Source: Promethearchaeota archaeon (GTDB lineage: Archaea > Asgardarchaeota > Lokiarchaeia > Sigyniarchaeales > SOKP01). From it: 37,137 nt of DNA. Below, one piece after another: positions 7,261 to 36,024 of the stretch (position 1 is the stretch's first letter; every line of letters begins with the position of its first letter). The position numbers and the translations under genes are program-made. Below the pieces are notes generated by a model, which saw only the letters and a list, made by a program, of their open reading frames with translations, searched no databases and had not been told where the DNA came from. The DNA is taken from the NCBI GenBank assembly GCA_011364975.1, contig RDOE01000032.1, positions 1 to 37,137 on the forward strand, in the 5' to 3' direction.

Positions 7261-8211
7261 ATGAAATCTAAAATGAAAGGAAATATTGAAGATAAGTATA
7301 AAAAAGCTACAAACATTTTATGGAAGATTTGGTGGTTTTTTGTATTTCTTTTTATTATCCCATCAGTAATAACGTTTTTAAGTTTTGTTATTATTAATTT
7401 TATCGCAGTTCGCATCGAAATTTTCGCAGGACCAGATATTTATGTTATAGTGGGCTTAACTGTTATTGTTTTCATCTTTTCTGTTTTGTTTTTTTATCGA
7501 TTCTTTGATAGATATCGAGACAAACCGATATTTTTTAACCAAGAAAATAATCTTGCTGCTCGGATTCATATACTATATCTCATTACGATTTTTTCTTTGA
7601 TTGTTACTCCCATTTTTGTATTTATAACCCCTGAAGAATACCAATTTGAATTATTACCGTTAATTTCATTTTGCCTCCTGTATAATATTGTCTATTTTTA
7701 TATTTCATTAAAACCAATTGATTATTTTAACGCATCAGAAAGAAGTTTTAAACGTGCGTTAAAGCTTTCACTCTCATTAAAACAACCACATAATTTTTTG
7801 ATTATTATCAATTATTTTATTCAAATAATATATCTCTCGTTAATTTTTCAAACTAGAATCTCTTGGCTTTTCGCGTTAATTACTAATCTACTTTTTTATA
7901 TAATTACATTGGGAACTACTAGTAAAATTCGTAAAGTTATTTCTAATTCTTTTAAAGAAGATAATAGATTCCTAAATGAACTTTCTTTATATAAAGAAAA
8001 ATTTGTCTCTTCTATTCTTAGTTTAAATTTTGTATTGCTGATTCAAATCCCGTTTGTAATAATAGGTGTGAATAGCTTTCAAGGAATATCTTACTCAATA
8101 ATGGATATTTTTAATGCATCTATTTATGCAATTTTGGTCTTCTTTCTGTATCTTAAATTTAGAATTTATTTAATTATAAATCATAAAAAATTTATCTTGA
8201 GTGTGAGTTAA
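7261..8211 (+). CDS. Polytopic membrane protein, about 8 helices, unknown function
   Basis: A 316-residue integral membrane protein. I count about eight hydrophobic segments, for example WWFFVFLFIIPSVITFLSFV near residue 25, IYVIVGLTVIVFIFSVLFF, ARIHILYLITIFSLIVTPIF, and a final SIYAILVFFLYLKFRIYLII. Hydrophilic loops are longer than in the giant neighbour, with a basic/acidic linker around KPIDYFNASERSFKRALK. There is no signal peptide and no recognised catalytic motif or domain. The stop codon is one base from the TTG start of the giant protein, so the two are almost certainly translated from one mRNA and probably work together. ATG at 7261 is taken as start; ATG at 7273 is possible. Confidence 0.8.
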   Translation: MKSKMKGNIEDKYKKATNILWKIWWFFVFLFIIPSVITFLSFVIINFIAVRIEIFAGPDIYVIVGLTVIVFIFSVLFFYRFFDRYRDKPIFFNQENNLAARIHILYLITIFSLIVTPIFVFITPEEYQFELLPLISFCLLYNIVYFYISLKPIDYFNASERSFKRALKLSLSLKQPHNFLIIINYFIQIIYLSLIFQTRISWLFALITNLLFYIITLGTTSKIRKVISNSFKEDNRFLNELSLYKEKFVSSILSLNFVLLIQIPFVIIGVNSFQGISYSIMDIFNASIYAILVFFLYLKFRIYLIINHKKFILSVS

Positions 8212-8212
8212 A

Positions 8213-11200
8213 TTGGGAGCTAAAAGCAATGATTTAGTAAAAAAGGAAAATTTGTCAAAATACCAAAAAATAAATGGATATTTATCTATTTTATTTGAAA
8301 TTATTATTATTCTGTTTTCTTTCTTTATTGGATTCCCTATAATCATTATACTTTCTTTTCCAATATTTGTGCTTCTAACAATTTATGAACAGAAAGTGGA
8401 TATTTGTCCAAGAGAATATAGTAGATTCATCTATCTAATTAATGTTCTTGGATTTTTAGGGTATATATGTTTTTGGCTTTTACCATTACTCATTCCAAAC
8501 ATCCTTTTTACAATACCCTTTATCGTATTCTTATTGTTATTTTATCTTTCCATGCAAATCTTTGCCCATAATGGATATTTTGATAAAAATAATGTTTTAA
8601 TATTTCAACATATTCTTGCGGTGGGAATGTTTATTACAATTATCTATTCCTTCTTCGATATTATCTCAACAGGATATATCAATTTTTCTGCTGAGACCGA
8701 GATTATAATTTTTGCAAACGTATTATTGCACATAATAATTAATCTTATAGTTCTTCTGATTTCCTTTTATTATTTATATGCAAGATATTTCCGTAATTTT
8801 CCTTGGAAAAATTTTAATCGGGCTATAATTACAAATATGTTATTAATCGAAATAACTGCATATATTTTAATTAATTTCAAGAATTTCTTTACTATAAATA
8901 TCCAAATGTTTCTGAATAACTTTCTCGTTTCTCTACTTGTATTTCCACTATTGTTCATTCTTTTTATTTTTCTAAATTATGTAATTGGTGCTTTTAGTAG
9001 GGATTTTAGTTTAAAGTATTGCTATTACTCTTGTTGGGTTATTTTACTAGTATCTGCTGCCTCAATCTTCTATATCTTTTTTGGAGATTTTGTAATTATA
9101 ATAGCTAATTTCTTGTATATTTCAATAGCTATACAAGTTTTATCGATGTTCGCATTAAAAATTAATAAAATTCAAGAAAAAACATTTCAGAAAATAAAGA
9201 ATTACACTGCTTATTCCATCTGGATCGAAATCTTTGTATTGTCTTTCTCTTTGTTTTTTAATGTACTTGAAGCTCTGATTATAAATCTAATTAGCAGGTC
9301 AATCCTTTCGGTGTATTTAGCCTTTTTGATCATAACAGCATTTAATATGATTGTAAATAAAACAGGCATTATCCCAGTTTCTTTACGAATTATAACAATA
9401 GACTTTGCCTTGTTTTATACAACATTTATAATTTTTTATTTCTCTCTTCTGTTAAACTTTAACACTTTTTTGGTATTTAATGTTCCAGCTTTATTATCTA
9501 GTTTATGGCTCTATCTACCCTTATTTAGGTTGAAAAGACGGGCTTCAAATCAAGGTTTAATAAAAAAGATAATTCAATTAAATGTAATTATTACATCGAT
9601 TACTTTACTTCTTATTCCTTTAATTTCTCATTTACAATTACAACTTCCTTTATCTGATTTCACACTTCTAAACTTAGTAAACTTTACATTATACATTTTC
9701 TATGGAATACTGACAGGGTTGCACATATTATCTCGCAGGCTTAATTTTAGGGAAGCTAGAAAAATTTTGATCTTAAAGGTTCAAATTGTTATTGAAATTG
9801 TCATAACAGGGACTACGGTGTTTTACTATTCTTTTGTTTTATTATTTGGTACCTACTTATCTTTCGTGTTACCTTTACTCTTTTCTTCACTCTTTCTATT
9901 TTTACCTGCTTTCTTTTCATACAAAAGGAATTTTTTCAATGCTAAAATACTAAAAAACATTATTATTTTGAACAGTATAGTACTTTGGGGCTGTATTATT
10001 TCCATTCCCTTTATGATAGGGTTTGATATATTTGGAATTGAAGTATTAATTTCTGAAATAGCAACAAATTTAATTATTGTAATTTTAATTTCATTTTTTC
10101 TGTTATTTAGTGCCTTAAAATATTTTGATAATCTTTCTAAATACCTAAAATTAAAGGATAATCTTATCATACGTTTAAAGATTACAGAAATTATTATATG
10201 GTTATCAATTTGCGTTTTAGTTAGTTATGGATTATATAACTTATTCTCGTTTGTTTCTACTGAGTGGCAATATATTTTAATATTGAGTGGTTCTTTCCTA
10301 CTTTTTTTCATAATTGATTTAGTAAATCTTCGATTACTTGAAGATCTGAAGCAAACTGTATTTGAAAGTGAAATTAGCAAGATTGATTATTATAAAATCT
10401 ATAAAATCTATGAATTTAACAAAAATTTAATTATATTTGGAATTTCATTCTCACTCTCTTTTCTTTTAACAACTTTCATTCAAATAATAAATATTCCAGG
10501 ATTATTATCGATAGAAAGTTTTCAATACTTTGATCTGTTATTTAATTTTTCTTTTTTCTTCCTCTTTGTATTGGGATTGATCAATCTTTTTGAAAAACTA
10601 GTTAAAATCGAATATGAAAGATTTAAAGAAATTCTTGAATTAATCGCTTGGTTATGCTTAAAAAGCTTAGTTTTAATAATATTTGCTTTATATCCATTTC
10701 ATATCTTATTTTACAACAGAATATTGTTAATTATTCTAATATTTTCGGTACTTAGTCCAATCACTCTTACCTATTTAAAAACAAAATTCTTGATTTTTGA
10801 AGAAACTCAATTGTTAATAAAAAAATGTATTGGATTAGTATTTTTTCTCTCCATAGTAAGCGCTTATGCAGAGATTTTATTGGATTATACTGGAATTGTG
10901 CCATTTTTTATAACAAATAATGATATATTAAGTATATATATTCTTTGTAAAGTTATCTTATTTGTATACTTCTATTTCTCGAGATTTAATGCTTTTTTTG
11001 AAAAAGATTCAGGTTTTCGTATTTATCGGTTAATGCTTTATTCGGTGATATTTTTAGGATTTTTTTCATTATTTTCACCTTTATTATCGTTGATTGGAAT
11101 AATATTGATCTTAATTAAACGAGCGAAGAATTATTTTCTCCGGTTTTTAAGTTATTTTTTAATTAGTATTACCTTATACATTGATATTCTCGGATTTACA

Positions 11201-14200
11201 GGATTTAGTTTATCTATAGCAAACATTAATTTACAAATTACAATCTATTTAGGGATATTTATCTCAACATTAATTCTTTCTATTTGTTCAAATCTCAAAA
11301 AAATTAATAATCTAGAAGAATTTTCGCTTTTTGTCTGTCTTTCTACCATCTCCTTCTTACTATTATATCCGATTATTCCATTACTTTATAATATCACTGT
11401 TTCGCTATTTATATACTTAAGCTTAATGGGCGTCTTTTATTATAATAAAAAGGATAAGAGATACAGATGGTTTGTTAAACCATGCATCCTTTTAGCAGTA
11501 TTTGACTTTATTAGTTTTATATCCTACACAATACTTTTTACTATTACTCCTTTTTTGGAATTTAATCAAATATTAACATTCACTTTAACAATATTTATCA
11601 CAGGTTTTCTCTTTGTTTTTCTTTATAATGATTCTCCACGTTTATTTAGAAAAAGTAGCTACTATATAATTCTAACTTTAAACACATTTTCTCTTCCAAT
11701 ATTTATATATTTCTTATTAATAGCCGCCTTTTCATTACCAATTTTTGATATAACTGTCTTCACAATTGCCATCAATATAGCTATTCTTCTTTTCTATTTT
11801 TCTATCGCTATTTATCAATGGAACATTTCATGGGCAATATGGAGCATTGGTTATAGAATTTGGATATTATTACCTATAGCAAATTATATGTTAATCAGTA
11901 AGGCTTTTACAGGCATTGATGTGTTTACTAATGCGCTTGACTTCTTTGGACTTAATATTTATGGTTCAAATATTATTGCATTTGTAATTTGTTTGTTAAT
12001 GTCATTACCCTTTTGGTACACCTGGATTAAGAAGAATTTTAATACAGTGCTGTTTATCGTATGGGGTTTAAGTTTAATTTTAATTTATTGGTTCAGCCAA
12101 AATGCATTTTTAAATGATATTTTTCTATTCATTTTATCATTTTTTGGAATCTCACTAATTTTTCTTATTCCCATTTTAATAAGAATGAAGATTTGGAGCA
12201 TTGGGTCTATATTATGGACCTTTTTTTCAACAATAATGCTGATTTTTCTCTTTAATTTCCTAAATGCCCATGGTCTGTTAATTCAATTGAATATTTCGGT
12301 GATTCTTATTGTTGGGGGAATTTTATTTATTATTTTATCATTTTTCCCTAGTCTAAGGGCCCAAAAAAACATTATTTTATTAATTTCTTTTATAATTTCA
12401 ATTAGTGGTGTATTTCTAATAATATTTAATATAATATATTTAATAACCTTCGAATTTTGGATTTCACTGTTTATATCTCTGATTATAATGTCTTTTAGTC
12501 TTTATTCATCAAGATTGTTAAAATTAAACAAAAGTTTCTTTAATACCTTAATTTCTAGTATCTTGATTATTAGTTTTACTGGTTTGACTTTCTTTACTTT
12601 AAATTTAATTCCCAACTTAGAGCTCCTTTCCTTTTATTTAGCTTTAACCGTTTGTGGAGCATCTTTTTTTGTATTTAATTACTATCGTCTCTTTGTTCCA
12701 GCAAAAAGAATAGTTCCGTTAACTATTTTATCTGTTGGCCTTTCACTTTCCGCTTCAACAATATGGTTGATGGTATTTCCTTCATCTTTATTTGTTATGC
12801 TTGCTATTTTTCTAGCTATTAATTTATTTTTCTTTAAGTTTGCGTTAATAAACCGAAGGTATATATTATGGTATTTAAGTCCAATTCCGATAACGCTTCT
12901 AATTTTAGAGCCTTTATCTTTTATTGAACTCTTTCAGTCATTATTATTATTTATTATTATGGGTTTGATGACGTATACTATTATTTTTCAGATATTAATA
13001 AACCTGTCTAGTAAAACTACAAAAGAAAGAATGCAGATTAAGTTAGTTAATTTAGTCTGTTTTCTTCTCATATCTACATATTTTTCTTTTTTGATTACCG
13101 CAATAAGTCCTATCTTATTAATATATCAAATTTTTGAGTTTTTAATTATCTGGTCAATCTTAGTATTATTTAGTACAAATTATCTTAAAAAATCACAAAT
13201 TACTTTTGACCTTGAAAATTTTGAGGTAAATTTAAAAAGATTTATCTCAATTGTTTCTATTTTGTTATATTTCGAAATATTTTCTCTTACTTTGGGGCTT
13301 TTGATTAATTATAGCCTATTAACTACCCTGGAAATTATTATAATCTCTTTTAGTTCCCTATTCCTCCTCACTGGGTTCGATTTAGCGATCTTAAGAAATG
13401 TCAATAAGAAATATTGTTTCCCTATTAATTATTCAACCTATTTGTTAATTTCTATACTATTGTTCATTTATTTAATACAATATGTTACCGATACATTTGA
13501 ATTTCTATTTTTGGATATAATTATTCTGTTAATTATGCAATATTATTCAATACTAGCGATTTTTTCTCATTTAAAGAGGTTAGATCGATATGAGATTACA
13601 ACATTAAATATTAGGCGTAAAGGATTGTTAAGTCTCTTAACAAACTCTATCTTTATAATAATAGGGTTGTATATATCCTCATTTTTGACAACTCTACTTA
13701 CCAACTTAAATCCGGCATTAGAAGGTTTTCCATCAACTTCATTTTTTATTATGGTTCTATCGTTTTTCATGTTCGTTTTAAATAATCTCCTTAAATATAA
13801 GTCAAAGAATTCAATATTATGGGGGATTTTTATAGTGTTACAATGCTCACTATCTACATTTTACCTAAGCTTATTAGCATTTTTCAATTATTTCAACATC
13901 TTTAGTATAATACTTCTCTTTCTCATTAACACTTTAATGAGCTTTTATACATTTTACATCCTCTCAAAGATTTACAAAGCACGAATAAATAAGGATACAA
14001 TTCGTAAAATCTATTCATTATTAATCATAATCTCATATTTAGAAATTTCCTTCACATTCTACGGACTTGCTAATCTTATATTTGATTATAGAGAAAGCTT
14101 CTTAATTTCTCAACTTGCTTTACTTTCCATTACTTTAGTGGAATTAAGCGTTGTGAAAAGAATCAGGAGGAAGTATATTCTAATTCTCCATACACTCAGT

Positions 14201-15787
14201 TATTTTAATGTTTCCATATCACTTTTCATGTTTTTGTTAATTCTTTCGGCCTACAATATGTCCTTACTAACGTTCTCAGTCGTCCTCTTTTGTCTAATGC
14301 AGTTCTATACAAATATCTCTTATTATAACACTAGAAAAGAATTCAATTTAGAGAAAGAAGAGAGTTTTCTTAGGTGGAAATTAATTAGGAAAAATTTGAT
14401 TGGGGGAATTTTTTATATTACTATAATCGGGTATATATGGCAAGTTCTATTTTTAGCAGGTTACGAAATTCTTTTAATGCTATTTCTTTTAATTATTCTC
14501 ATTCATGTATTAGCCATAATTGATAGGGTGGTTTTAAAATTTATTGGAAGGTTTTCTGTACACCTGATGAATTTTTCTTGGTTATTTTTAGTAGGTTTTT
14601 CATTGTTTTACTATTCAAGTTGGATTATAACATATTCTTTTTATGTTATTCCTGTGATTATCCTTCTTATTATCATAGAATTATCATATGGATATATGGT
14701 CAAATTAACGGATATATGGGCATCATTTAAAAATAATCGAAGGAAATTCAGAAATTTTTTGGTAATTATAACCTATTTTAACTTTATATCCTGGCCAATC
14801 TACTTTTTAAGCTTAGAGCCAATGATTTTTTGGGGATCCATATTACTTTCTTTGGGAATTGGATTAACTTTTACATTGATTGATAAAAGTATTAGAGCTT
14901 TTAATGAAGATTTTAGAGCGAGGTTATTTAAACTTTTATTTAGTAGCTTTGGAATCATTTTTTCTGTCGATGTTTATTTCCTTTTAGATGGATTAACTGC
15001 AAATAACTTCTTTTTTAATATTTCAGTCTCATTATTTACATTCGTTATATTTATAGGTATTCTTATTAATCCTTTCAAAAGAAATAGGTTATTATCATTC
15101 CTATATTGGACCATAACATTTTTTCTACTTAGTAGTATTTCATATAATGCCTATTTTACCGGGATAAGCTGGGCAATATTAATTATCGGTTTATTATTAT
15201 ATCCATTTATTTTTATGTTAGAAGAATTGAAACTCTTCTTTGAAAAATTTGTTGAAAACATTAGTATCCTTCTTAAGAAAATTGCAGCTTCTATAGGTAA
15301 ACTTATTACAGGAATATTCAATTTTCTTAAGAGGAACTATAAAGTTATACGTATATTTTTATGCGTACTTTTTGGAGTGATGGCGGGAATCCTGTTTTCT
15401 GATATTATTTTACATATCTTAAATCCCTATCACTCTTTATTGCTTGCATTTGCGATCTTTGGTCTGTTATATGGTATCCTTCCTTCAGAAAAAACTGAGG
15501 ATTATGACGAAATTTTTAAACATAAAATGACTAGATTCATAACACTCTGGGTGGGTATGACTGCATTTATTTTTCTTTTTATTTTACCTTATTTAGAGTC
15601 GGTACTATTTTCTTTTTTCCTTTTGTTGCTTTCAATTTTAGGTTTAGGAGCGATAATTTTGATCTACCTATATAGATTAGAAGAAAAAGAGCGGATCTCA
15701 ATCTTATGGCGTTTTTATACATTGATTACCTTCTTTATAATTTTAGGGATTGAAGCAGTAATTATAGTATTTTTATATATCTCTTAG
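8213..15787 (+). CDS. Giant membrane protein of 2,524 residues built from repeated two-helix hairpins
   Basis: One uninterrupted frame encodes 2,524 residues, nearly all membrane-embedded. By hand I count 75-80 hydrophobic segments. They come in a regular pattern: helix, short uncharged loop, helix, then a Lys/Arg-rich loop, every 60-70 residues, giving about 40 hairpins. The positive-inside rule would place the basic loops (KRRASNQGLIKK, RRKFRN) in the cytoplasm. Many first helices carry an acidic or Asn residue in a similar place: IWIEIFVLS (near 337), IVIEIVITG (528), LLYFEIFSL (1688), SYLEISFTF (1943), SYFNVSIS (about 2000). Near the C-terminus an amphipathic linker (about 2340-2370) precedes a slightly different ending, YKVIRIFLCVLFGV. 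The start is TTG one base after the previous stop. No catalytic or transporter motif, and no family I know. Confidence 0.85.
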   Translation: MGAKSNDLVKKENLSKYQKINGYLSILFEIIIILFSFFIGFPIIIILSFPIFVLLTIYEQKVDICPREYSRFIYLINVLGFLGYICFWLLPLLIPNILFTIPFIVFLLLFYLSMQIFAHNGYFDKNNVLIFQHILAVGMFITIIYSFFDIISTGYINFSAETEIIIFANVLLHIIINLIVLLISFYYLYARYFRNFPWKNFNRAIITNMLLIEITAYILINFKNFFTINIQMFLNNFLVSLLVFPLLFILFIFLNYVIGAFSRDFSLKYCYYSCWVILLVSAASIFYIFFGDFVIIIANFLYISIAIQVLSMFALKINKIQEKTFQKIKNYTAYSIWIEIFVLSFSLFFNVLEALIINLISRSILSVYLAFLIITAFNMIVNKTGIIPVSLRIITIDFALFYTTFIIFYFSLLLNFNTFLVFNVPALLSSLWLYLPLFRLKRRASNQGLIKKIIQLNVIITSITLLLIPLISHLQLQLPLSDFTLLNLVNFTLYIFYGILTGLHILSRRLNFREARKILILKVQIVIEIVITGTTVFYYSFVLLFGTYLSFVLPLLFSSLFLFLPAFFSYKRNFFNAKILKNIIILNSIVLWGCIISIPFMIGFDIFGIEVLISEIATNLIIVILISFFLLFSALKYFDNLSKYLKLKDNLIIRLKITEIIIWLSICVLVSYGLYNLFSFVSTEWQYILILSGSFLLFFIIDLVNLRLLEDLKQTVFESEISKIDYYKIYKIYEFNKNLIIFGISFSLSFLLTTFIQIINIPGLLSIESFQYFDLLFNFSFFFLFVLGLINLFEKLVKIEYERFKEILELIAWLCLKSLVLIIFALYPFHILFYNRILLIILIFSVLSPITLTYLKTKFLIFEETQLLIKKCIGLVFFLSIVSAYAEILLDYTGIVPFFITNNDILSIYILCKVILFVYFYFSRFNAFFEKDSGFRIYRLMLYSVIFLGFFSLFSPLLSLIGIILILIKRAKNYFLRFLSYFLISITLYIDILGFTGFSLSIANINLQITIYLGIFISTLILSICSNLKKINNLEEFSLFVCLSTISFLLLYPIIPLLYNITVSLFIYLSLMGVFYYNKKDKRYRWFVKPCILLAVFDFISFISYTILFTITPFLEFNQILTFTLTIFITGFLFVFLYNDSPRLFRKSSYYIILTLNTFSLPIFIYFLLIAAFSLPIFDITVFTIAINIAILLFYFSIAIYQWNISWAIWSIGYRIWILLPIANYMLISKAFTGIDVFTNALDFFGLNIYGSNIIAFVICLLMSLPFWYTWIKKNFNTVLFIVWGLSLILIYWFSQNAFLNDIFLFILSFFGISLIFLIPILIRMKIWSIGSILWTFFSTIMLIFLFNFLNAHGLLIQLNISVILIVGGILFIILSFFPSLRAQKNIILLISFIISISGVFLIIFNIIYLITFEFWISLFISLIIMSFSLYSSRLLKLNKSFFNTLISSILIISFTGLTFFTLNLIPNLELLSFYLALTVCGASFFVFNYYRLFVPAKRIVPLTILSVGLSLSASTIWLMVFPSSLFVMLAIFLAINLFFFKFALINRRYILWYLSPIPITLLILEPLSFIELFQSLLLFIIMGLMTYTIIFQILINLSSKTTKERMQIKLVNLVCFLLISTYFSFLITAISPILLIYQIFEFLIIWSILVLFSTNYLKKSQITFDLENFEVNLKRFISIVSILLYFEIFSLTLGLLINYSLLTTLEIIIISFSSLFLLTGFDLAILRNVNKKYCFPINYSTYLLISILLFIYLIQYVTDTFEFLFLDIIILLIMQYYSILAIFSHLKRLDRYEITTLNIRRKGLLSLLTNSIFIIIGLYISSFLTTLLTNLNPALEGFPSTSFFIMVLSFFMFVLNNLLKYKSKNSILWGIFIVLQCSLSTFYLSLLAFFNYFNIFSIILLFLINTLMSFYTFYILSKIYKARINKDTIRKIYSLLIIISYLEISFTFYGLANLIFDYRESFLISQLALLSITLVELSVVKRIRRKYILILHTLSYFNVSISLFMFLLILSAYNMSLLTFSVVLFCLMQFYTNISYYNTRKEFNLEKEESFLRWKLIRKNLIGGIFYITIIGYIWQVLFLAGYEILLMLFLLIILIHVLAIIDRVVLKFIGRFSVHLMNFSWLFLVGFSLFYYSSWIITYSFYVIPVIILLIIIELSYGYMVKLTDIWASFKNNRRKFRNFLVIITYFNFISWPIYFLSLEPMIFWGSILLSLGIGLTFTLIDKSIRAFNEDFRARLFKLLFSSFGIIFSVDVYFLLDGLTANNFFFNISVSLFTFVIFIGILINPFKRNRLLSFLYWTITFFLLSSISYNAYFTGISWAILIIGLLLYPFIFMLEELKLFFEKFVENISILLKKIAASIGKLITGIFNFLKRNYKVIRIFLCVLFGVMAGILFSDIILHILNPYHSLLLAFAIFGLLYGILPSEKTEDYDEIFKHKMTRFITLWVGMTAFIFLFILPYLESVLFSFFLLLLSILGLGAIILIYLYRLEEKERISILWRFYTLITFFIILGIEAVIIVFLYIS

Positions 15788-16108: not shown

Positions 16109-16194
16109 GTTAAGCTCAATTTTTTTCTCCTTAAAATTTTTAAGTCCTATTGATGAATAAAAATCATACAACTTAATTGATAAGGTTAAGAATT

Positions 16195-16740
16195 ATGGAA
16201 GAAGAAACCGACAATAAGCAAATTAATGTAAAAGATTGGATAATCCTTAGTACTACAATGATCGGTGCTGTTCTAACAATCCTTGCTCTTATATGGCAAG
16301 CCAGACCAAGTCGAGGTATTGTTACCGTTACTTTCTTATTAATGCTTTCCTTCATTTTTTTTGTTAATTCTGTATCAGCAAATTCAAGGGCAAATTTTGA
16401 ATTAAAGTTAAAGAATTTCGACATAAAGAAGGTTAATAAATTCGTTAAATTTGCAGAATACACATTTGGAATGGGATTTACCATAGTAATAATTGGGTTT
16501 TCGATCCTTGGCTATATGTATTTACTCGATTTTACCCTAGGTTCAATATATGCATTGATTTTACCCATAACATTTCTAGTTATAGCCTGGATTTTAATAT
16601 TAATCTATAACACAATAAATTATTCTGGTAAATCAGTCAAAGGATTAAGGAGTATGAAGAGAAATCTTTGGATATTGATGGAATTTATAAGTTTAATAGC
16701 AATACTTTTTGATTTCTTTATATTTGCCTTTATAATCTAA
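16195..16740 (+). CDS. Membrane protein with about 5 helices, unknown function
   Basis: A 181-residue integral membrane protein. Hydrophobic segments are WIILSTTMIGAVLTILALIW, GIVTVTFLLMLSFIFFVNSV, a third ending IIGFSILGYMYLL, SIYALILPITFLVIAWILIL and the C-terminal LMEFISLIAILFDFFIFAFII. A charged cytoplasmic-type loop (ELKLKNFDIKKVNKFVKF) separates helices 2 and 3. ATG at 16195 is preferred to the in-frame TTG at 16177 because AAGGT lies 6-10 bases before it. It stands alone and ends convergently with the TrmB-like gene. No family is recognised. Confidence 0.7.
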   Translation: MEEETDNKQINVKDWIILSTTMIGAVLTILALIWQARPSRGIVTVTFLLMLSFIFFVNSVSANSRANFELKLKNFDIKKVNKFVKFAEYTFGMGFTIVIIGFSILGYMYLLDFTLGSIYALILPITFLVIAWILILIYNTINYSGKSVKGLRSMKRNLWILMEFISLIAILFDFFIFAFII

Positions 16741-23241: not shown

Positions 23242-25608
23242 ATGAAACGAGTGAATATAACGCTTAATGATTTGTTGCCCAAAGGAGAACAATTAACTTT
23301 TTTAGTAGGTGCGGGGTGTTCCGTGGATGCCCCATCGTGTCTCCCGGCTGGTCGTCCTATGATGAACGCAATCATTAATCATGTGACAGCAGAATCAGAG
23401 CATGAGAAACTTGCGAAATTGCAGGAAATCCGTTTTGAATCATTGGTCGAGATCGTACGGGATAATCTCGATCCCGAGCTAAAAATTATTGATTATTATA
23501 CTCAATGTGATAAACCAAATCTCCAGCATTTCTTCTTAGCGAGTATGATTGAACGTGGGCATTTTGTCATGACTACAAATTTTGATCTATTAATTGAGCA
23601 TGCAATGTTACAATTAGGGATACCAATAGAACAAATAAAAGTTGCAATTACAAAAAAAGATTTTGAGAAACTTAATGACCCTGAAAAGCTTTGTGCTGAT
23701 GGATTCAAGACTCTTTACAAAATTCACGGGTCTACAGAAAACGTTTTAACCAAAGAATCAACTAGAGAAAGCTTGATTGCAACTATTCAAGCATTTGGTT
23801 CGAACAAGCAAGGATTAAGTGTGTTTCAAGTTGAGCCTTTTAAACGCACCCTATTCGATAATATATCTCGTGGGCGTTCTTTAGTCGTCATGGGATACTC
23901 TGGGAGTGATGATTTTGATGTGGTTCCCACTCTCAAGGTTCTTCATGAAATGAAGTCGGTGATATGGATAGATCATAGATTTGAAATAACCAATATACCA
24001 AATATATACGAAATCGAGATTCCGAAAAAAGTGGACAGTAAAAATGGGAGTAAGGTGGATCAAATTCTATTAGATATTAAACTCGCATCAAATATTCCTC
24101 ATGTTTATAAGGTTGAGATAAATACTTCTAGTTTTTCGGAATTTTTCCTCTCAAGAGAGATCTCTCTTTCAAACGAGAACTTTAAATTAAGCCTTCAATC
24201 TTGGTTGAGCGAAAATGTTAAGGTGGAAAATGAAGCAATGAAATATATAATTCCCCAACAACTATATCATGACTATAATCGCTATGAGGATTCATTACGA
24301 TGCATTGAAGACCTTTTGAAGCTCGCTCGCAAACAAATGGATCCTGTTTTAGAAATTCGAGCATTGCTTCTGAAGGGAAAAGTTCTTGATTCTGCAGGGA
24401 ATCACAATGATGCTATAAAAATCTTTCAGGACGCTCTCAAACAGGCAAAATCATTACAAAATGAGGAATGGTTAGCCGCATCTTTAAATAACATCGGAAA
24501 TGTGTATAACAGTAGAGCTAAATATGAAGAAGCGCTATCCTATTACAAGCAAGCACTCCCTATTTTCCAAACGAGGGGGAGCCTTTATGAAGAAGGTATC
24601 GTGATGCGAAATATGAGCTCAATTCTCAAAAATTTGAATCGAAACTCGGAAGCTTTGGAACATGCAAGAAGAGCATTGGAAATTTCAGAAGTGTTTGGAA
24701 AATTATCAGATAAAGGAGATATTTTAATGATAATTGGCATGATCGAGACCAGCATGGGAAATGTACAAGATGCAATCACGCATTATGAAGAATCCCTAAG
24801 AATAAACGATCAACTACATGATTACGATGCAAAAGTAGGCGTTTTGAATGTATTAGGTGATTTAATGATGAAACTAGGAGATTTTAACCGTGCTCTGACA
24901 TACTTTCAAGATTCATTACAAGTATCTGAAAGTATTAATGATCTTTCTGGAAAAGCATCAACTTTAAACAATCTGGGAAGACTTTACACAATTTTATCTG
25001 ATTTTTCACTAGCAATGAATTACCTGACTCTTGCAAGGAATTTAGCAAATGAAATTCAAGATAGTCTTATTGAAGCAAATAGTTCTTCCAATATGGGACT
25101 TGTATACTATTATCAAAGTGAAATGGATGAAGCATTAAAAATTTGGGAAAACACTTTAAAGATTTACGAAGCGAAAAAATTTGAGCTTGGAAAGGCAACT
25201 ACTCTCATTAATATCGGAGATGTCTATTATCAAAAACAGAAATATAAAAAGGCTTCTCAGGCTCTCGAAGAAGCATTAAGAATTGGTAAGGAATCAAACG
25301 ATATGGGTATTCAAGCCAATTCATTACAGAAATTAGGTATGATTTTGCAGGATGAAAAACAGTATGATAATGCAGCTTCTCTTTATCACAAGGGGTTAGC
25401 AATCTGCCAGCAAATAGGGGATATTGTAGGAATTGCTACATTCATAAATAACCTTGGTGCTATAGACTTTTCTCGTGAAAAATATGACGTTGCTCTTCAA
25501 AAATACAATGAAGCTTATAATCTTCTAAATCAAGTAGGATTGGGAGAAAGTCCATTAGCTTATACCATCTTAAGAAACATTGATCATCTAAATCAGCTTT
25601 CAAAATAA
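23242..25608 (+). CDS. SIR2-like domain fused to an array of TPR repeats
   Basis: A 788-residue two-part protein. Residues 1 to about 300 form a SIR2-like (NAD-binding) domain: GAGCS (23-27), TTNFD (111-115) with the Asn that is catalytic in NADase members, KIHGS (His162) and GYSGSDDFD (218-226). The zinc-binding Cys pairs of true protein deacetylases are absent. From about 335 to the end there are about eleven 40-residue TPR units (for example WLAASLNNIGNVYNSRAKYE, ASTLNNLGRLYTILSDFS). SIR2 domains joined to repeat scaffolds occur in bacterial and archaeal anti-phage systems, where they destroy NAD+. AGGGG at 23227-23231 precedes the ATG. It is divergent from the polB2 unit. NADase activity is inference. 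Confidence 0.8.
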   Translation: MKRVNITLNDLLPKGEQLTFLVGAGCSVDAPSCLPAGRPMMNAIINHVTAESEHEKLAKLQEIRFESLVEIVRDNLDPELKIIDYYTQCDKPNLQHFFLASMIERGHFVMTTNFDLLIEHAMLQLGIPIEQIKVAITKKDFEKLNDPEKLCADGFKTLYKIHGSTENVLTKESTRESLIATIQAFGSNKQGLSVFQVEPFKRTLFDNISRGRSLVVMGYSGSDDFDVVPTLKVLHEMKSVIWIDHRFEITNIPNIYEIEIPKKVDSKNGSKVDQILLDIKLASNIPHVYKVEINTSSFSEFFLSREISLSNENFKLSLQSWLSENVKVENEAMKYIIPQQLYHDYNRYEDSLRCIEDLLKLARKQMDPVLEIRALLLKGKVLDSAGNHNDAIKIFQDALKQAKSLQNEEWLAASLNNIGNVYNSRAKYEEALSYYKQALPIFQTRGSLYEEGIVMRNMSSILKNLNRNSEALEHARRALEISEVFGKLSDKGDILMIIGMIETSMGNVQDAITHYEESLRINDQLHDYDAKVGVLNVLGDLMMKLGDFNRALTYFQDSLQVSESINDLSGKASTLNNLGRLYTILSDFSLAMNYLTLARNLANEIQDSLIEANSSSNMGLVYYYQSEMDEALKIWENTLKIYEAKKFELGKATTLINIGDVYYQKQKYKKASQALEEALRIGKESNDMGIQANSLQKLGMILQDEKQYDNAASLYHKGLAICQQIGDIVGIATFINNLGAIDFSREKYDVALQKYNEAYNLLNQVGLGESPLAYTILRNIDHLNQLSK

Positions 25609-27995: not shown

Positions 27996-28583
27996 TTAAG
28001 CGACTTCTCCACAATAATTACAAATTTTCAATTTTGCTGAAAAATAATTACCACATTTGCTACATTCCTGTAATTGTTTTTCAATTATTGCATTGACGAT
28101 ATTCAAAAAAGCATTTTCTACATTTTCACTAGTTTTAGAAGAAGTTCCAATTGGTTCCCCATAACAATTGAATATTTTACTTGCTTTGATAGCATCAGTT
28201 TTTGATATCTCACGTTGATCTTTTAAGTCGATTTTTGTTCCAATTATGACTTTAATAATATCTTTAGAGTTTTCATCAATAATTTTAACCCAATTTCCAA
28301 TATCATCTAATGATGACTTTTTAGTCGTATCATATAACAATAATGCTGCTGTAGCACCATTTACATAAGCCGGAAAAAGGATGCGGTATTTTTCCTCGCC
28401 ACCAAAATCCCAAATATTTAATTCAACATTTAAATCTTCCTTAATTCTTACTTCTTTTCTCTTAAAAGCAACGCCTATAGTTTCTTTGGTTTTTTCATTA
28501 AAGATATCATCACAATAACGAGCAATAAGTGAACTTTTCCCAACATTTTTAGCTCCGGCAACCACAATCTTATATTTTAACAT
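27996..28583 (-). CDS. Ras/Rab-like small GTPase with C-terminal zinc ribbon
   Basis: A 195-residue P-loop GTPase. G1 is GAKNVGKS (10-17), the switch I Thr is T35, G3 is DFGGE (59-63), G4 is TKID (116-119) in place of NKxD, and G5 is TSSK (147-150). Rab-like features include WDFGGEEKY and LLLYDTT. Glu63 stands where Gln usually helps hydrolysis. After the G domain the tail ends CSKCG (174-178) and CNYCG (188-192), a rubredoxin-like zinc ribbon in the place where eukaryotic Rabs carry prenylated Cys. It should bind GTP in the cytoplasm; the tail may bind a partner or nucleic acid. Expansion of such GTPases is typical of Asgard archaea. It faces the acyl-CoA synthetase gene divergently. Confidence 0.9.
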   Translation of the reverse strand: MLKYKIVVAGAKNVGKSSLIARYCDDIFNEKTKETIGVAFKRKEVRIKEDLNVELNIWDFGGEEKYRILFPAYVNGATAALLLYDTTKKSSLDDIGNWVKIIDENSKDIIKVIIGTKIDLKDQREISKTDAIKASKIFNCYGEPIGTSSKTSENVENAFLNIVNAIIEKQLQECSKCGNYFSAKLKICNYCGEVA

Positions 28584-28841: not shown

Positions 28842-30620
28842 ATGAGTGATGAAATAGTTAGATATTGGGATAAGAATTGGCCCGAAGAAACACCTAAACA
28901 TGTAGATTATAACGTAGTTCCTTTAGGAAATCTTCTAGATAAAACCGCTGAAACTTATCCCTATTCTCAAGCAATATTTTTTGAAGGTTTTAGAATGGCT
29001 TATAAAGAGCTAAATACACTTGTCAATCAATTTGCTACTGGACTTTCGAAATTAGGGATTAAAAAAGGTGATGTTGTGTGTATTGATTTACCTAACATAC
29101 CTCAATATGTGATAGCTCATTGGGCGGTACTAAAATTAGGAGCAACATCTAATCCGATATTACCAGTAAATAGATTTGTTGAAATAGTCCATCAGGTAAA
29201 TGATTCAAAAGCTACCACCTTATTAATCTTAGATTATTTATTTGCAGAACATCTGGAGGGTAAAGATCTAAGTAAAATGCCTACCTTGAAAAACATTATT
29301 TTTACAGGACTTGCAGAATATTTGCCTAGTATGAAAGCAAAATTGGGTACAGTTTTGGGGAAAGTCCCAAGAATGAAAGAATGGCCGGAAAAGATAGGTG
29401 AGAAAAAAATCCATAAATTTCAAGCTATTTTACAAGATGGTTTTCAAATCAATATACCAAAAGTTGAATACGATCTTAAAAAGGATATCGCTATTTTAAT
29501 ATATACCGGAGGTACTACAGGTGTACCTAAAGGTGTAATGATTTCTCACTATTCTATGGTTGTTAATGCTTTACAAACAGATATCTGGGCTACAACTCAA
29601 TTAAAGCGAATGGAAGAAACAAAGGGCAAAGGGGGAATGTTGTTAGTCGTTCCGCTAGCACACGCTTTTGGTAATATTGGTATGACTGTTTCGGTTCTAG
29701 AAGGATGGAAAATGATTCTATTACCCCGACCTCCCGATAAAATCTCCAATATATTAAAACATATTATGAAAGAAAAAGCAACTTATATGCCGGGTGTACC
29801 CACTCTTTATATTAAACTTAACCAAGATCCAGATTCGAAGAAATACAAAGGAAAACTGGACTCACTTATCGCTTGTATTAGTGCAGCGTCAGCAATACCA
29901 GAAGAGGTTAAAAATGAATTTGAGAGAATTACAGCTGCTAGTTTGGTTGAAGGATATGGTATGTCAGAGTTTTCTCCCGTTGTTGCCCTAAACCCTTTCA
30001 AAACTGAGCTCCAAAAAATAAATACCGTCGGCTTTCCATTATCAGATACACTTTTAAAGATTGTTGATGCTGATTCAGGTACTAAAGTATTACCACAATG
30101 CCCCAATGAAAGCTGTGAAAATTGTGGTGCTGATGAATTTCAATATATTGGTGAAATATGTTGTACTGGTCCGCAGATGATGCTAGGTTATCTAGGAAGG
30201 CAAAAAGATACCGATTATGCGTTAAGGAAGGATTCGAAAGGTATTACATGGTACTACACCGCAGATATTGGATGCATTGACAGCGGTGGTTATCTTCGAA
30301 TTAAGGATCGAAAGCGAGATATGATCAAATATAAAGGGCATGGTGTATTTCCTCGAGAAGTTGAAGATTTACTCTACATGAATGATGCAGTCTTAGAAGT
30401 GGGCGTAATAGGAATCCCTGATCCAGAAGTTGGTGAAAATATCAAAGCATTTATTGCTTTAAAACCAGAATACCAAGGTAAGGTTACGGTGGAAGATCTG
30501 AGTATTTGGGCTAAAGAAAACATAAGTCCCTTCAAATATCCACGCTTAATCGAAATTGTACCCGAATTACCAAAATCAGTAGTAGGAAAGATTTTAAGAA
30601 GAGAATTAAGAAAATCCTAA
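28842..30620 (+). CDS. AMP-forming acyl-CoA synthetase (with Cys-rich insertion)
   Basis: A 592-residue adenylate-forming enzyme. The P-loop motif is YTGGTTGVPKGVM (about 226-238), followed by VPLAHAFG, the aromatic/gate region EGYGMSEFSP, the Asp of YTADIG, the hinge KDRKRDMIKYKG and the C-terminal catalytic Lys in PKSVVGKILRREL. It should convert a carboxylate, ATP and CoA to acyl-CoA, AMP and PPi; the chain length or ring type is unknown. Unlike its two neighbours it has an insertion with CPNESCENCG followed by EICC, a possible zinc site, just before the TGP-x-MLGYLG segment. Its spacing to the next gene (144 bp, with a T-tract) suggests its own transcript. Confidence 0.85.
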   Translation: MSDEIVRYWDKNWPEETPKHVDYNVVPLGNLLDKTAETYPYSQAIFFEGFRMAYKELNTLVNQFATGLSKLGIKKGDVVCIDLPNIPQYVIAHWAVLKLGATSNPILPVNRFVEIVHQVNDSKATTLLILDYLFAEHLEGKDLSKMPTLKNIIFTGLAEYLPSMKAKLGTVLGKVPRMKEWPEKIGEKKIHKFQAILQDGFQINIPKVEYDLKKDIAILIYTGGTTGVPKGVMISHYSMVVNALQTDIWATTQLKRMEETKGKGGMLLVVPLAHAFGNIGMTVSVLEGWKMILLPRPPDKISNILKHIMKEKATYMPGVPTLYIKLNQDPDSKKYKGKLDSLIACISAASAIPEEVKNEFERITAASLVEGYGMSEFSPVVALNPFKTELQKINTVGFPLSDTLLKIVDADSGTKVLPQCPNESCENCGADEFQYIGEICCTGPQMMLGYLGRQKDTDYALRKDSKGITWYYTADIGCIDSGGYLRIKDRKRDMIKYKGHGVFPREVEDLLYMNDAVLEVGVIGIPDPEVGENIKAFIALKPEYQGKVTVEDLSIWAKENISPFKYPRLIEIVPELPKSVVGKILRRELRKS

Positions 30621-30630
30621 TTTTTTTTTT
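30621..30630 (+). terminator. T-tract terminator
   Basis: Ten T residues directly follow the stop codon of the first acyl-CoA synthetase gene, with more T-rich sequence after it. Typical archaeal terminator. Confidence 0.5.
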
Positions 30631-30764
30631 CTTTTAATCCTTTTAATTCATTTTTTGGATTATTTATTAATTTTCTTGATCATTTTAATCAAACTTTATA
30701 ACTAATTCCAACAATAATAATATTTAACCATTTATTAAATCAAAAAAAAGTTAATGATCTAAAA

Positions 30765-32474
30765 ATGACTAGTCCATATGAAACCCGGTTCTGGATGAAG
30801 AACTGGGATCCGAATGTGAAGGATATTGATCCAAAAGAGTTTGAAACTACATATCCCGCATATATTAGAAATATATTCGATAAATACCCCGATAATATGG
30901 CCCTATCATATCAAGGATTAGAAATTACGTTCGCAGATGTAGATAAACGTTCTAATCAATTTGCAAATATGCTTATTCAAAATGGGTTTAAAAAAGGGGA
31001 TGCAGTGGGTATAAATTTGCCTAATATTCCAGAATATGTTTATTCATTGATAGGTACGCTTAAAGCAGGGTGTATTGTTTCAGGAGTTAGTCCTTTGATG
31101 TCTGATATCCAAATGCATTACCAGCTGGATGATCTTAGTAAGGGTGGGAAAAAAGTAGCATTAGTGACTCTTGATGCTATTTTCGAACATCGTCTGAAAA
31201 AGATTGCATCCACCTTACCTCATCTTGAGGTCGTTATTGCTACAAGCGTTATCGGCTCATTTCCAAAGGAACAACAAGAAAAAATTAAGGCCGTTCAAGA
31301 AATTCCATCGGGAATAGTAACTACTTTAGAGGGAAAATCTGTTTATAACTTCCAAGATGATATTTTAGCAAAATTTTCAGATGAATTGCCTAAGGTTGAG
31401 ATTTCTCCAGAGGATATAGGATGGATTCAATACACCGGAGGAACGACAGGACCACCCAAAGGCGCAATGTTAAGTCATCGTAACTGCATGTCTAATATGA
31501 TAAGTATTAGAAAGTGGCTTCAATGGGAAGAAGCTGATGGAATGTTGCTATCAGGATTTCCGATGTTTCATGCCGCAGGTTTAACAGTATGCGAGAGTGC
31601 TCTTGCCTTAGGATGGGGGCAAATCCTTATTGCTAATCCTAGAGATGCATTACATATATGTAATCAAATGAAAGCTTATAATCCAACAGTACTTGTAAAT
31701 GTTCCATCTTTATATCAGATTTTGATTAATTTCAAAAAATTTAAAAGATTAGATCACAATCAATTAAGAATGTGTATTTCTGCTGCAGCACCATTTCCGA
31801 AAGAATCGCAAGAAAAACTAGAGGAAATAGTAGGTCAAGGAAAACTGTTAGAATTGTATGGAATGACCGAACTTTCACCAGTAGCTACCATGAATCCCTC
31901 TTTAGGCAAGAAAAAGCTAGGAAAAGTAGGGTTACCAATACAAAATATAATGTTAAAGATTGTTGATCCTGATTCCAATGAAGAAGTTCCTTTAGGACAA
32001 CCTGGGGAAATTTGTGTTGCAGGTCCCTTAGTGATGAAGGGATATTACAACAAGCCTGAAGAAACAGCAAAAGCTGTAGATAAAGATGGGTATATGCACA
32101 CGGGAGATGTGGGATTGATGGATGAAGAGGGATATGTGCAAATCGTCGATCGAACGAAAGATATGATTATAGTAGGAGGTTTTAAAGTATTTTCAGCAAA
32201 AGTAGAAGATACATTAGTTAAACATCCTGCGATAGGCATGGTTGCATTAATTGGAACTCCTAATCCAGAAAGACCTGGATCTGAGATTGTAAATGCATAT
32301 ATCCAACTAGATCCTGAGTTTGAGTTTGATGGGAATAAAGACGCATTAAAGGAGGATATTCTTGCATTTGCCAATAAAGAATTGGCTCCCTATGAAATTC
32401 CTAAAAAGATAGAATTTTCTGAAGAATTACCATTAACGGTCATAGGAAAGATAGATAAAAAAGCCTTACGTTAA
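30765..32474 (+). CDS. AMP-forming acyl-CoA synthetase, paralogue 2
   Basis: A 569-residue member of the same superfamily: YTGGTTGPPKGAMLSHRN, FPMFHAAG, ELYGMTELSP, the Asp of MHTGDVG, the hinge VDRTKDMIIVGG and the C-terminal catalytic Lys in LPLTVIGKIDKKAL. The N-terminus TRFWMKNWDPN...DPKEFE matches the next gene. It is closely similar along its whole length to the gene at 32657-34363 and more distant from the first synthetase, so the latter two are the recent duplicates. Substrate is unknown, probably a fatty or aromatic acid. ATG at 30765 follows an AT-rich TATA-like region without a Shine-Dalgarno. Confidence 0.85.
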   Translation: MTSPYETRFWMKNWDPNVKDIDPKEFETTYPAYIRNIFDKYPDNMALSYQGLEITFADVDKRSNQFANMLIQNGFKKGDAVGINLPNIPEYVYSLIGTLKAGCIVSGVSPLMSDIQMHYQLDDLSKGGKKVALVTLDAIFEHRLKKIASTLPHLEVVIATSVIGSFPKEQQEKIKAVQEIPSGIVTTLEGKSVYNFQDDILAKFSDELPKVEISPEDIGWIQYTGGTTGPPKGAMLSHRNCMSNMISIRKWLQWEEADGMLLSGFPMFHAAGLTVCESALALGWGQILIANPRDALHICNQMKAYNPTVLVNVPSLYQILINFKKFKRLDHNQLRMCISAAAPFPKESQEKLEEIVGQGKLLELYGMTELSPVATMNPSLGKKKLGKVGLPIQNIMLKIVDPDSNEEVPLGQPGEICVAGPLVMKGYYNKPEETAKAVDKDGYMHTGDVGLMDEEGYVQIVDRTKDMIIVGGFKVFSAKVEDTLVKHPAIGMVALIGTPNPERPGSEIVNAYIQLDPEFEFDGNKDALKEDILAFANKELAPYEIPKKIEFSEELPLTVIGKIDKKALR

Positions 32475-32488
32475 GAGTATAAATTTCA

Positions 32489-32498
32489 TTTTTTTTTT
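32489..32498 (+). terminator. T-tract terminator
   Basis: Ten T residues start 15 bases after the stop of the second acyl-CoA synthetase gene. Supports separate transcription of the third gene. Confidence 0.45.
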
Positions 32499-32656
32499 AT
32501 TTCTAAATTGTAAGTTTTTATAGTTCTATAATAAATTATGATTCTTCATTCTATTTCTTTTAAAAATATGAGTCTATAAAATTAAACTAAAATACTATGT
32601 ATCAAGTAATATCATAAAATCAATATTAATTTTAAAAAACGAAATCAGTGAAAAAT

Positions 32657-34363
32657 ATGTCTTATAGTAGTAGATTTTGGAAAAAATCATATGATAAAGG
32701 AATTAATGATTTAGATCCTAAGGAATTCGAATTTTCATATGTAGATGTCATGAGGCGTACTTTTAACGAACTTCCAGATAAATTAGCCTTAGCGTTTTAC
32801 GGAACTGAAATTACATATGGAGAGTTGGATAGACTTTCCAATGAATTTGCGCATATGCTAATTGAAAATGGGTTTAAGAAAGGAGATGTACTTGGAGTTA
32901 ATACTGCTAACATTCCTGAATACGTAATTGGATTACTTGGTGGGTTGAAAGCTGGGCTAATTGTATCAGGAGTTTCACCACTTCTCTCAGCGGTTCAAAT
33001 ACAATATCAGTTGAGTGATTTAGGGTCTGGTGGTAAGCAAGTAGCATTACTAACACTTGATGCTATTTTTGCAGGCCATATCACAAAAATCGCTTCAAAA
33101 TTACCTTCATTAAAATTAGTAGTTACCACAAGTGTTGCAGGATTTATGCCTAAATTTTTAGGAGTAATGGCAAAACTGCTTAAAAAAGTACCTAAGGGAA
33201 AAGTCACACCACTAGAAGGAATTATAGTTTTAGAATATCATAAAGATGTAAAAGGTAAGTATTCTGATGAATTACCTAATGTAAAAGTAGGACCCGATGA
33301 TATTGCGTTTATTCAGTATACTGGTGGAACCACAGGACCTCCTAAAGGAGCAATGTTAACCCATAGAAATTTTGTAAGTGATGTTAAAATCTTTCAACAC
33401 TGGCTTAGCTGGGAGTTTGGAATTGGAGGAGGATTATCAGGATTCCCATTTTTCCACATAGCAGGATTATTTACGTGTGCAAATGTTATAATGTTAGGTT
33501 GGAGTCAAGTTTTGATTCCTAATCCGAGAGATACAAATCATATAATTAAAGAGATGATCAAATATAGACCTAGTGTCTTAGCAAACGTACCAACATTATA
33601 CCAAATGTTATTAGCAAATCCTAATTTTAGGAAAGTCGATAAGGATATGTTAGACTATGTGATATCCGCAGCAGCTCCTTTTCCAAAGGAATCCCAAGAG
33701 ATTCTTGAAAGTGTTATAGGAACGGGAAAATTAATTGAGTTATATGGTATGACGGAAACTTCTCCATTATCTTGTGGAAATCCCTCTAAGGGTAAAAAGA
33801 AGTTAGGAAGTGTTGGTTTACCTTTACCCAATGTTGATCTAAAATTAGTTGATCCTGAATCTGGAAAAGAAGTCCCCCTTGGAGAACCAGGAGAAATATG
33901 TGTAAAAGGCCCAGTCGTCACAAAAGGGTATTATAATAAACCAGATGAGACTAAAAAAGCTATTGATTCTGATGGATATATGCACACAGGAGATATGGGT
34001 ATTATGGATACCGAAGGATATGTAAGGATAGTAGATCGTACCAAGGATATGATAATTGTAGGGGGCTATAAAGTCTTTTCCACAAAAGTAGAGGATACGC
34101 TTACTCAACACCCCGCTATTGCTATGGTAGCTATTGTTGGTTTACCGAACCCTGAGCGTCCTGGCTCTGAGCTTGTTAAAGCTTTTGTTCAAATAGATCC
34201 CAGTTATGAATTTGATGGAAATAAAGAAGCTCTAAAAGAAGAGATTAGTGTTTTCGCTCAAAAAGAATTGTCACCATATGAAGTTCCTAAAATGATTGAA
34301 TTTATCGATGAACTACCGTTAACAGTTGTAGGTAAAGTCGATAAAAAAGCACTAAGAGGTTAA
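32657..34363 (+). CDS. AMP-forming acyl-CoA synthetase, paralogue 3
   Basis: A 568-residue enzyme nearly collinear with the preceding gene: YTGGTTGPPKGAMLTHRN, FPFFHIAG, ELYGMTETSP, MHTGDMG, VDRTKDMIIVGGYK and the catalytic Lys in LPLTVVGKVDKKAL. ATG at 32657 is chosen over the in-frame GTG at 32648 because it aligns with the start of paralogue 2 (SRFWKKSYD versus TRFWMKNWD). The Lys of the GK motif is the residue whose acylation switches off such enzymes in bacteria and eukaryotes; the convergent sirtuin gene begins just beyond this gene's end. Substrate difference from paralogue 2 cannot be told from sequence. Confidence 0.85.
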   Translation: MSYSSRFWKKSYDKGINDLDPKEFEFSYVDVMRRTFNELPDKLALAFYGTEITYGELDRLSNEFAHMLIENGFKKGDVLGVNTANIPEYVIGLLGGLKAGLIVSGVSPLLSAVQIQYQLSDLGSGGKQVALLTLDAIFAGHITKIASKLPSLKLVVTTSVAGFMPKFLGVMAKLLKKVPKGKVTPLEGIIVLEYHKDVKGKYSDELPNVKVGPDDIAFIQYTGGTTGPPKGAMLTHRNFVSDVKIFQHWLSWEFGIGGGLSGFPFFHIAGLFTCANVIMLGWSQVLIPNPRDTNHIIKEMIKYRPSVLANVPTLYQMLLANPNFRKVDKDMLDYVISAAAPFPKESQEILESVIGTGKLIELYGMTETSPLSCGNPSKGKKKLGSVGLPLPNVDLKLVDPESGKEVPLGEPGEICVKGPVVTKGYYNKPDETKKAIDSDGYMHTGDMGIMDTEGYVRIVDRTKDMIIVGGYKVFSTKVEDTLTQHPAIAMVAIVGLPNPERPGSELVKAFVQIDPSYEFDGNKEALKEEISVFAQKELSPYEVPKMIEFIDELPLTVVGKVDKKALRG

Positions 34364-35383: not shown

Positions 35384-35944
35384 GTGGTGATTGGGTCGAT
35401 TTCAGTCCAGAAATCCTATATATATAAAATTTGCATTGTAGGAAATGGTGGTGTTGGTAAAACTTCAATGGTTCTTCGCTACTGTGAAAATGCTTTTAAG
35501 GAAAATTACATAATGACGATAGGTTCTAACTTTAGCACTAAAACTGTCGATCTGCAAGAATACCCCCATTTCCAAGTAAAGCTGCAGATATGGGACTTAG
35601 CTGGACAAAAACACTTCAGTTTTGTAAGACCTCCATTCTATCGAGGAGCAACAGGAATCATATATGTATTTGATTTAACTCGTAGATCTTCTTTTGCAGA
35701 ATTACTTGAATGGAGGAATGAAGTAGAAAAAGTAATTGGCCAAAAACCTAGCATAATTGTAGGAAATAAGCTTGATTTGGCCGATCAAGGAAAACGTGAA
35801 GTTTCATATCAAGATGGAGAATCGCTGAAAGGTGAATTGCATGCGAATAACTATTTTGAAACAAGCGCTAAAGTAGGTGATTCAATTGATAATGTTTTTA
35901 AAATATTAACCTTAGAAATTCTAAAAACATCTGGCAAAATTTAA
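35384..35944 (+). CDS. Ras/Rab-like small GTPase
   Basis: A 186-residue Rab-like GTPase with canonical motifs: G1 GNGGVGKTS (20-28), switch I Thr45 in YIMTIGSNF, G3 WDLAGQ with Gln75, G4 NKLD (128-131) and G5 ETSAK (159-163). YRGATGIIYVFDLTRRSSF is typical of the Rab/Ras family. It ends TLEILKTSGKI with no Cys, so it lacks a prenylation motif and any lipid anchor seen in eukaryotic Rabs. The start is GTG at 35384, with a second GTG next to it. Unlike the GTPase at 28 kb it keeps the catalytic Gln and NKxD. It precedes the proteasome alpha gene on the same strand with an 80-bp gap. Confidence 0.9.
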   Translation: MVIGSISVQKSYIYKICIVGNGGVGKTSMVLRYCENAFKENYIMTIGSNFSTKTVDLQEYPHFQVKLQIWDLAGQKHFSFVRPPFYRGATGIIYVFDLTRRSSFAELLEWRNEVEKVIGQKPSIIVGNKLDLADQGKREVSYQDGESLKGELHANNYFETSAKVGDSIDNVFKILTLEILKTSGKI

Positions 35945-36024
35945 TTTTTAAGGTATAAACCATAAATTAAAATTGGTTAGTTAATTTTTAAATTATAAAA
36001 TTCAATTACTATTAGGTTAAAAAG

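Follow-up and report, generated by a model that had tools for sequence, protein, structure and literature searches.

What kind of protein is an archaeal chain that consists of hydrophobic helices from end to end, and what might it do? The question is raised by a 37,137-nt stretch of Lokiarchaeia DNA (hereafter, the window), in which one open reading frame encodes a giant membrane protein, referred to below as the giant. Lokiarchaeota are archaeal relatives of the eukaryotic ancestors, and the role of the giant in Lokiarchaeia matters because this lineage is central to work on the origin of eukaryotes. The predicted number of membrane passes is two to three times the 38 of PIEZO, all in one chain that hardly extends beyond the bilayer. 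This raises the questions of how the cell inserts and folds a protein of this kind and how its topology is kept while its length changes by even-helix blocks. The wider group has cultured members (PMC11316595), and experiments would thus be possible if a cultured strain carries the gene.

Frame and predicted topology of the giant

The giant is encoded by a single open frame of 2,524 codons with a TTG start (Table 1), and the opposite strand contains many stops and no overlapping gene of note. Leu, Ile and Phe make up 47% of the protein, and mean hydropathy is at least 0.75 in every 100-residue block. On the single sequence, a Kyte-Doolittle analysis gives 72 helices at a cut-off of 1.6 and 78 at a cut-off of 1.2. 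With a topology model that applies dynamic programming to hydropathy and Lys/Arg content averaged over 34 aligned family members, we obtain 81 passes when charge is included and 80 when it is not, with the N-terminus predicted inside and the C-terminus outside. In the charge-aware topology, the mean number of Lys/Arg residues is 1.5–8.3 in every inside loop (40/40) and at most 0.85 in every outside loop (40/40). When the loop charges are permuted (15 runs), the topology score falls from the observed 2108 to a mean of 1957 (s.d. 16), and the number of outside loops with a Lys/Arg value of at least 1 rises from zero to ~11.

The density of one pass per ~31 residues extends over the whole chain, with no soluble domain. 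The longest outside loop is predicted to have ~10 residues, and the longest loop of all lies on the inside, in a region that forms a continuous helix (residues 2318–2374) in the AlphaFold2 (AF2) model. AF2 was run on two pieces of the giant, residues 383–1560 and 1349–2524, and both models are almost wholly helical (pLDDT 74 and 72, pTM 0.39 and 0.36, respectively). They contain ~64 helices of at least 16 residues over positions 383–2524, to which hydropathy adds 11 helices before residue 383; the low pTM makes the packing between blocks unsure. Taken apart from its function, we consider the architecture of the giant described here and below very probable. The original prediction of about 75–80 helices and no sizeable soluble domain is borne out, with 81 passes predicted rather than a number far below 60.

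Table 1. Positions in the window of the giant, its parts and the adjoining reading frames
Feature	Giant residues	Position	Strand	Basis
N-terminal part as separate ORF, 316 aa, 8 passes (in-in)		7261–8211	+	similarity to fused orthologue
Giant membrane protein, 2,524 aa		8213–15787	+	open frame, topology, AF2, orthologues and dN/dS
N-arm repeat copy 1, 4 helices	394–514	9392–9754	+	local alignment
N-arm repeat copy 2, 4 helices	525–649	9785–10159	+	local alignment, profile-profile
Conserved core	~1085–1480	11465–12652	+	alignments A1, A4, A5, conservation profile, core profile
C-arm repeat copy 1, ~8 helices	1626–1875	13088–13837	+	profile-profile
C-arm repeat copy 2, ~8 helices	1880–2128	13850–14596	+	profile-profile
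Longest loop, inside, ~41 aa, amphipathic, Lys-rich	2337–2377	15221–15343	+	topology
C-terminal motif, G A I ... Y .. E ..... S. K/L W R	2479–2500	15647–15712	+	alignments A1, A3
187-aa ORF, ~5 helices, downstream of giant		16177–16740	+	conserved neighbour in genus

Family distribution, core and arms

Among the window's own and related genomes, a sequence search recovers homologues in 34/58, while a profile search finds them in ~60/79 genomes of the window's order; the 149 Asgard genomes from outside this order yield none. In a GTDB-wide scan with one strict peptide pattern, which distant relatives could escape, the named records are all Candidatus Lokiarchaeota or Lokiarchaeia. Full-length, intact orthologues are present in more than 20 genomes at identities from 50% down to ~21%, and the dN/dS of the whole ORF is 0.14–0.34 for non-saturated orthologue pairs, which points to purifying selection on the giant. 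A chance ORF is ruled out by the same intact orthologues and dN/dS values. The giant is nevertheless missing from some near-complete genomes of the order, such as G026 (99%) and G029 (96%), and it is thus dispensable rather than essential to the order.

When the window protein is compared to Pfam with hmmscan at E ≤ 10, the only match is COX14 (E = 0.61), which is meaningless, and 14 diverse members have no Pfam match at E ≤ 0.05. NCBIfam and PADLOC yield no family match for the giant, and the family profile has no match among PDB sequences. A Foldseek search of both AF2 models against the PDB gives no match at E ≤ 0.001, with PIEZO not among the best 50 listed, although this is weak evidence because the models have low pTM; the soluble alpha-solenoids and other large chains that Foldseek does list (E ≥ 0.02, TM ≤ 0.27) were judged meaningless. 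In the open-licence literature, we found no paper on such a protein. The remaining claims of the original prediction, that the gene is intact under selection, that its homologues are restricted to related archaea and that it has no recognised motif, agree with these results, in which no profile of a characterised family matches. That reading is supported as a whole; it lacked the upstream N-terminal part, the build of a core plus two arms and the duplication of even-helix blocks.

Conservation along the giant peaks in the core, inside which no duplication is seen. The positions invariant in alignment A1 are W1210, W1217, P1221, N1224, G1251, S1252, P1266, W1284, W1293, F1299, P1320, W1328, W1335, F1345 and P1379, and a set of W, P, N, D, F and G-S residues stays unchanged down to ~20–36% identity between distant members. 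The core profile has one match per genome, always in a giant-ORF member, and no stand-alone core was found with it in the genomes searched. The columns of the C-terminal motif are likewise invariant or nearly so. By these alignments and searches, the giant belongs to a single-copy family that is restricted to one order among the Asgard genomes searched and is composed of a ~400-residue core and two long arms.

The arms contain tandem helix blocks. BLASTP self-comparison of the giant returns only the trivial match, and windowed alignment was then used for repeats. In the N-arm, the local alignment of the two copies scores 132 (null, 75) at a shift of 131, and in a profile-profile self-comparison of the family, residues 375–500 match 501–635 with a probability of 99.3%. 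The C-arm copies match each other with a probability of 99.6% (shift of 250–254), and weaker repeats are seen as well. In relatives, the tandem blocks are 121–134 aa (4 helices), 179–184 aa (6 helices) or 246–256 aa (8 helices) long, where the helix number is ±1 if a block edge cuts a helix, and the copies are up to 95% identical and much fresher than those of the window protein. The second N-arm copy is a site of lineage-specific expansion in relatives, and their extra C-arm copies map to residues 1876–2271 of the window protein; all mapped expansions fall in giant residues 215–610 or 1876–2271 and none in the core. Between most repeat copies, dN/dS is 0.12–0.32, and the copies are thus kept functional, with the exceptions being a 250-aa copy pair in L082 (0.6) and a boundary pair in L047 (969–1096; 0.62).

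Member lengths span 2,524–4,296 aa and pass numbers 81 to ~129, with up to 3,331 aa (~105 passes) in one genus and 3,932–4,296 aa (121–129 passes) in another family of the order. The largest member seen, at 4,296 aa and with ~106–129 predicted passes, is encoded on a single 4.36-Mb contig (G042, L130 5156–18046, minus strand). Compared across members, the aligned sequences show that the arms lengthen and shorten by in-frame tandem duplication of even-helix blocks flanking the core. Because the blocks have 4, 6 or 8 helices, the predicted N-in/C-out topology is kept. All members that were run singly (16/16) indeed have an odd number of passes (81–129) with N-in and C-out, which fits growth by even-helix blocks only and is partly expected, as the termini are homologous.

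The giant is preceded by a further part of the protein. The upstream 316-aa ORF stops 1 nt before the giant and is 46% identical to residues 1–304 of the fused orthologue L035 (E = 2e-78), and both parts are found in one chain in G016, G012, G030, G036, G024, G025, G032, G039, G045 and others. Judged by this similarity, the 316-aa ORF is part of the same protein as the giant. In split members, the break is always between the first 8-helix part and the remainder, the start of the giant overlaps or adjoins the stop of the first ORF, and a Shine-Dalgarno-like AGGAGG precedes this start in several genomes. This arrangement suggests translational coupling of the 316-aa-type ORF and the giant, and because of it, a programmed frameshift joining the two was rejected. 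On the core tree, the split or fused state changes at least 4 times (5–95% bootstrap range of 4–4).

Candidate functions and gene neighbours

By analogy with PIEZO, the best explanation of this build, which we put at a probability of about 0.35, is that a functional core is surrounded by a helical scaffold or tension sensor embedded in the membrane. The arms would then be a helical solenoid within the bilayer and would link the core to the tension, curvature or lipid state of the membrane, in the way that the four-helix-unit blades of PIEZO serve its pore. The core, rich in Trp, Pro, Asn, Asp and Gly-Ser, would be a gated, conducting or assembly module. Nearly all of the protein mass is predicted to sit in the bilayer. 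The four-helix units are in favor of this explanation, as are arms whose length varies freely around a core whose length does not and the lack of a recognised soluble catalytic domain in the chains examined. Proteins of the SPFH/flotillin family are membrane-domain scaffolds, and in one genus (G046, G050; L131 12961–14202 and L132 15966–17189, both minus strand), a flotillin-like (SPFH/Band-7) gene immediately precedes the 3.9-kaa giants, which is also consistent with this explanation. Counted against it are the lack of a sequence or predicted-fold match to PIEZO or any mechanosensitive channel, the unsure inter-block arrangement in the AF2 models (pTM 0.36–0.39), the two copy pairs with dN/dS of ~0.6 and the absence from near-complete genomes.

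No neighbour type is universal across the family, and because the neighbours differ by clade, the context does not point to mechanics. The 187-aa-type ORF is a same-strand neighbour in G015, G004, G016, G020, G021, G018, G012 and others, and it matches neither Pfam nor NCBIfam. Several genomes of the genus also encode, right behind the giant and in the opposite orientation, a protein of 265–320 aa that carries a TBP domain at its C-terminus (L033 3054–4016, L037 2468–3430, L040 1864–2661).

Other neighbours are in line with the main rival explanation, in which the core is a transporter or flippase whose substrate is a sugar, glycan, polyisoprenoid or lipid. The arms would serve as lipid-facing extensions or as a conduit whose repeated sites hand on a long substrate that is hydrophobic or a glycan. 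In several genera, a GH4 glycosidase is encoded directly upstream of the giant and an MFS gene lies two or three genes upstream, while the window has a TrmB-type regulator, of a sugar-responsive family, near the giant. In one subclade (L069, L070, L071, L075, L077, L081, L084, L085, L095, L097), a Liv-type ABC transporter is encoded directly downstream on the same strand, with LivH/LivM-like permeases and a binding protein (Peripla_BP_6 in L140). Conserved polar N, GID, GS and QN motifs in or beside the core helices would also suit a transporter. However, these neighbours are partly in a stable syntenic block with unrelated genes (DNA polymerase B and the aminotransferase found upstream of the giant in several genera), and there is no ATPase or soluble energising domain. 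The window protein matches no transporter in Pfam or NCBIfam, the 14 diverse members match none in Pfam, and no transporter fold is matched at E ≤ 1e-3. On balance, we regard transport as somewhat unlikely.

Genes directly downstream in other clades would fit a receptor or signal platform, in which the giant would detect a signal from the membrane or a lipid and relay it to a clade-specific soluble partner encoded next door. These are PAS-HisKA-HATPase genes by Pfam in G024, G025 and G033 (with a 752-aa gene placed like the PAS histidine kinases as the putative counterpart in G032), a zinc-ribbon gene in G036 and G028 (gap of ~28 nt) and, in one family of the order, a zinc-ribbon gene with a WD40 beta-propeller in G045 and G039 (L050 3757–5802, minus strand; L051 14458–16206, plus strand). 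We consider such a platform improbable, as no such partner lies next to the giant in the genus of the window, no single partner type is common to all and these types may be common in the genomes concerned.

Much less probable again is neutral drift, in which weak constraint on a large hydrophobic protein lets tandem duplications change its length without any function that needs this length. The range of lengths, the patchy presence and the lower conservation of the arms than of the core are in line with drift. Against it stand the low dN/dS of both the entire ORF and most pairs of repeat copies, the more than 20 genomes in which the frame is intact, the lack of any arm-less or core-only member among those found and the strict charge alternation along all 81 passes. 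Finally, an assembly or ORF-calling artefact has a negligible probability: the data are from MAGs, and a proteasome gene frameshift on the same contig shows that small errors happen, but the artefact is already refuted by the same long frame in dozens of independent assemblies, including the single 4.36-Mb contig and contigs of 334 and 649 kb, and is opposed by purifying selection at the codon level.

Elsewhere in the window, the proteasome alpha subunit gene (36016–36746, plus strand) is broken by this frameshift: the frame 36016–36402 stops after '...IAEPNLGA', and the protein continues in another frame at 36345–36746 ('...QFGGIRPWGCALFFI...'). This is probably an assembly indel and possibly a real lesion. 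A 788-aa protein (23242–25608, plus strand) has an N-terminal SIR2-like domain (SIR2_2) and a long TPR array, with weak SIR2/TPR matches in PADLOC, and is a possible defence protein. Two Ras-family small GTPases (27996–28583, minus strand; 35384–35944, plus strand) are expected for Lokiarchaeia, and three acyl-CoA synthetase-like (AMP-binding) genes are found in tandem at 28842–34363 (plus strand).

Comparison with known systems

The family of the giant may be a new class of membrane protein, namely an expandable membrane solenoid of ~81–129 passes with a conserved core that is found in only one Asgard order, senses or shapes the cell membrane and has an origin independent of PIEZO. We hold this to be possible, at somewhat less than even odds. 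Internally repeated polytopic transporters usually have 10–24 passes and one or two duplications. They share with the giant family the internal duplication of helix blocks, whereas the giant family is an open-ended array with lineage-specific copy number and no transporter profile match.

PIEZO proteins are mechanosensitive channels of eukaryotes that form homotrimers with a mechanically gated cation current, and their chain is ~2,500 aa long. According to a review, no other membrane protein has as many transmembrane passes as PIEZO, with 38 per chain and 114 per trimer, and the PIEZO blades are built from four-helix units (PMC9256749). The giant is similar in having a very large chain, many passes, arms of repeated four-helix units and a functional module that is separate and conserved. 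The PIEZO-like array takes the form of 128–134-aa blocks with 4 helices and is an analogy for which homology was not found. Unlike PIEZO, with its 38 passes, extracellular cap and intracellular beam, the giant family has ~81–129 predicted passes, no outside domain and a core that sits mid-chain. The PIEZO-type cap after the penultimate helix is absent from the giant, whose outside loops do not exceed ~10 residues, and the PIEZO Pfam profile has no match in the window protein or the 14 diverse members. Because there is neither homology nor a cap, we do not file the giant as a PIEZO.

Giant prokaryotic ORFs with predicted membrane helices are also found in Omnitrophota, where that of Velamenicoccus archaeovorus has 39,678 aa and 42 predicted helices, and these giants often have large extracellular domains and are poorly conserved (PMC10066038). 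The giant has neither large soluble or extracellular domains nor a low number of helices for its length, and in contrast to the Omnitrophota proteins, the Lokiarchaeia family is nearly pure membrane and conserved across its order. In predicted passes per chain, it is far above both PIEZO and the Omnitrophota giant.
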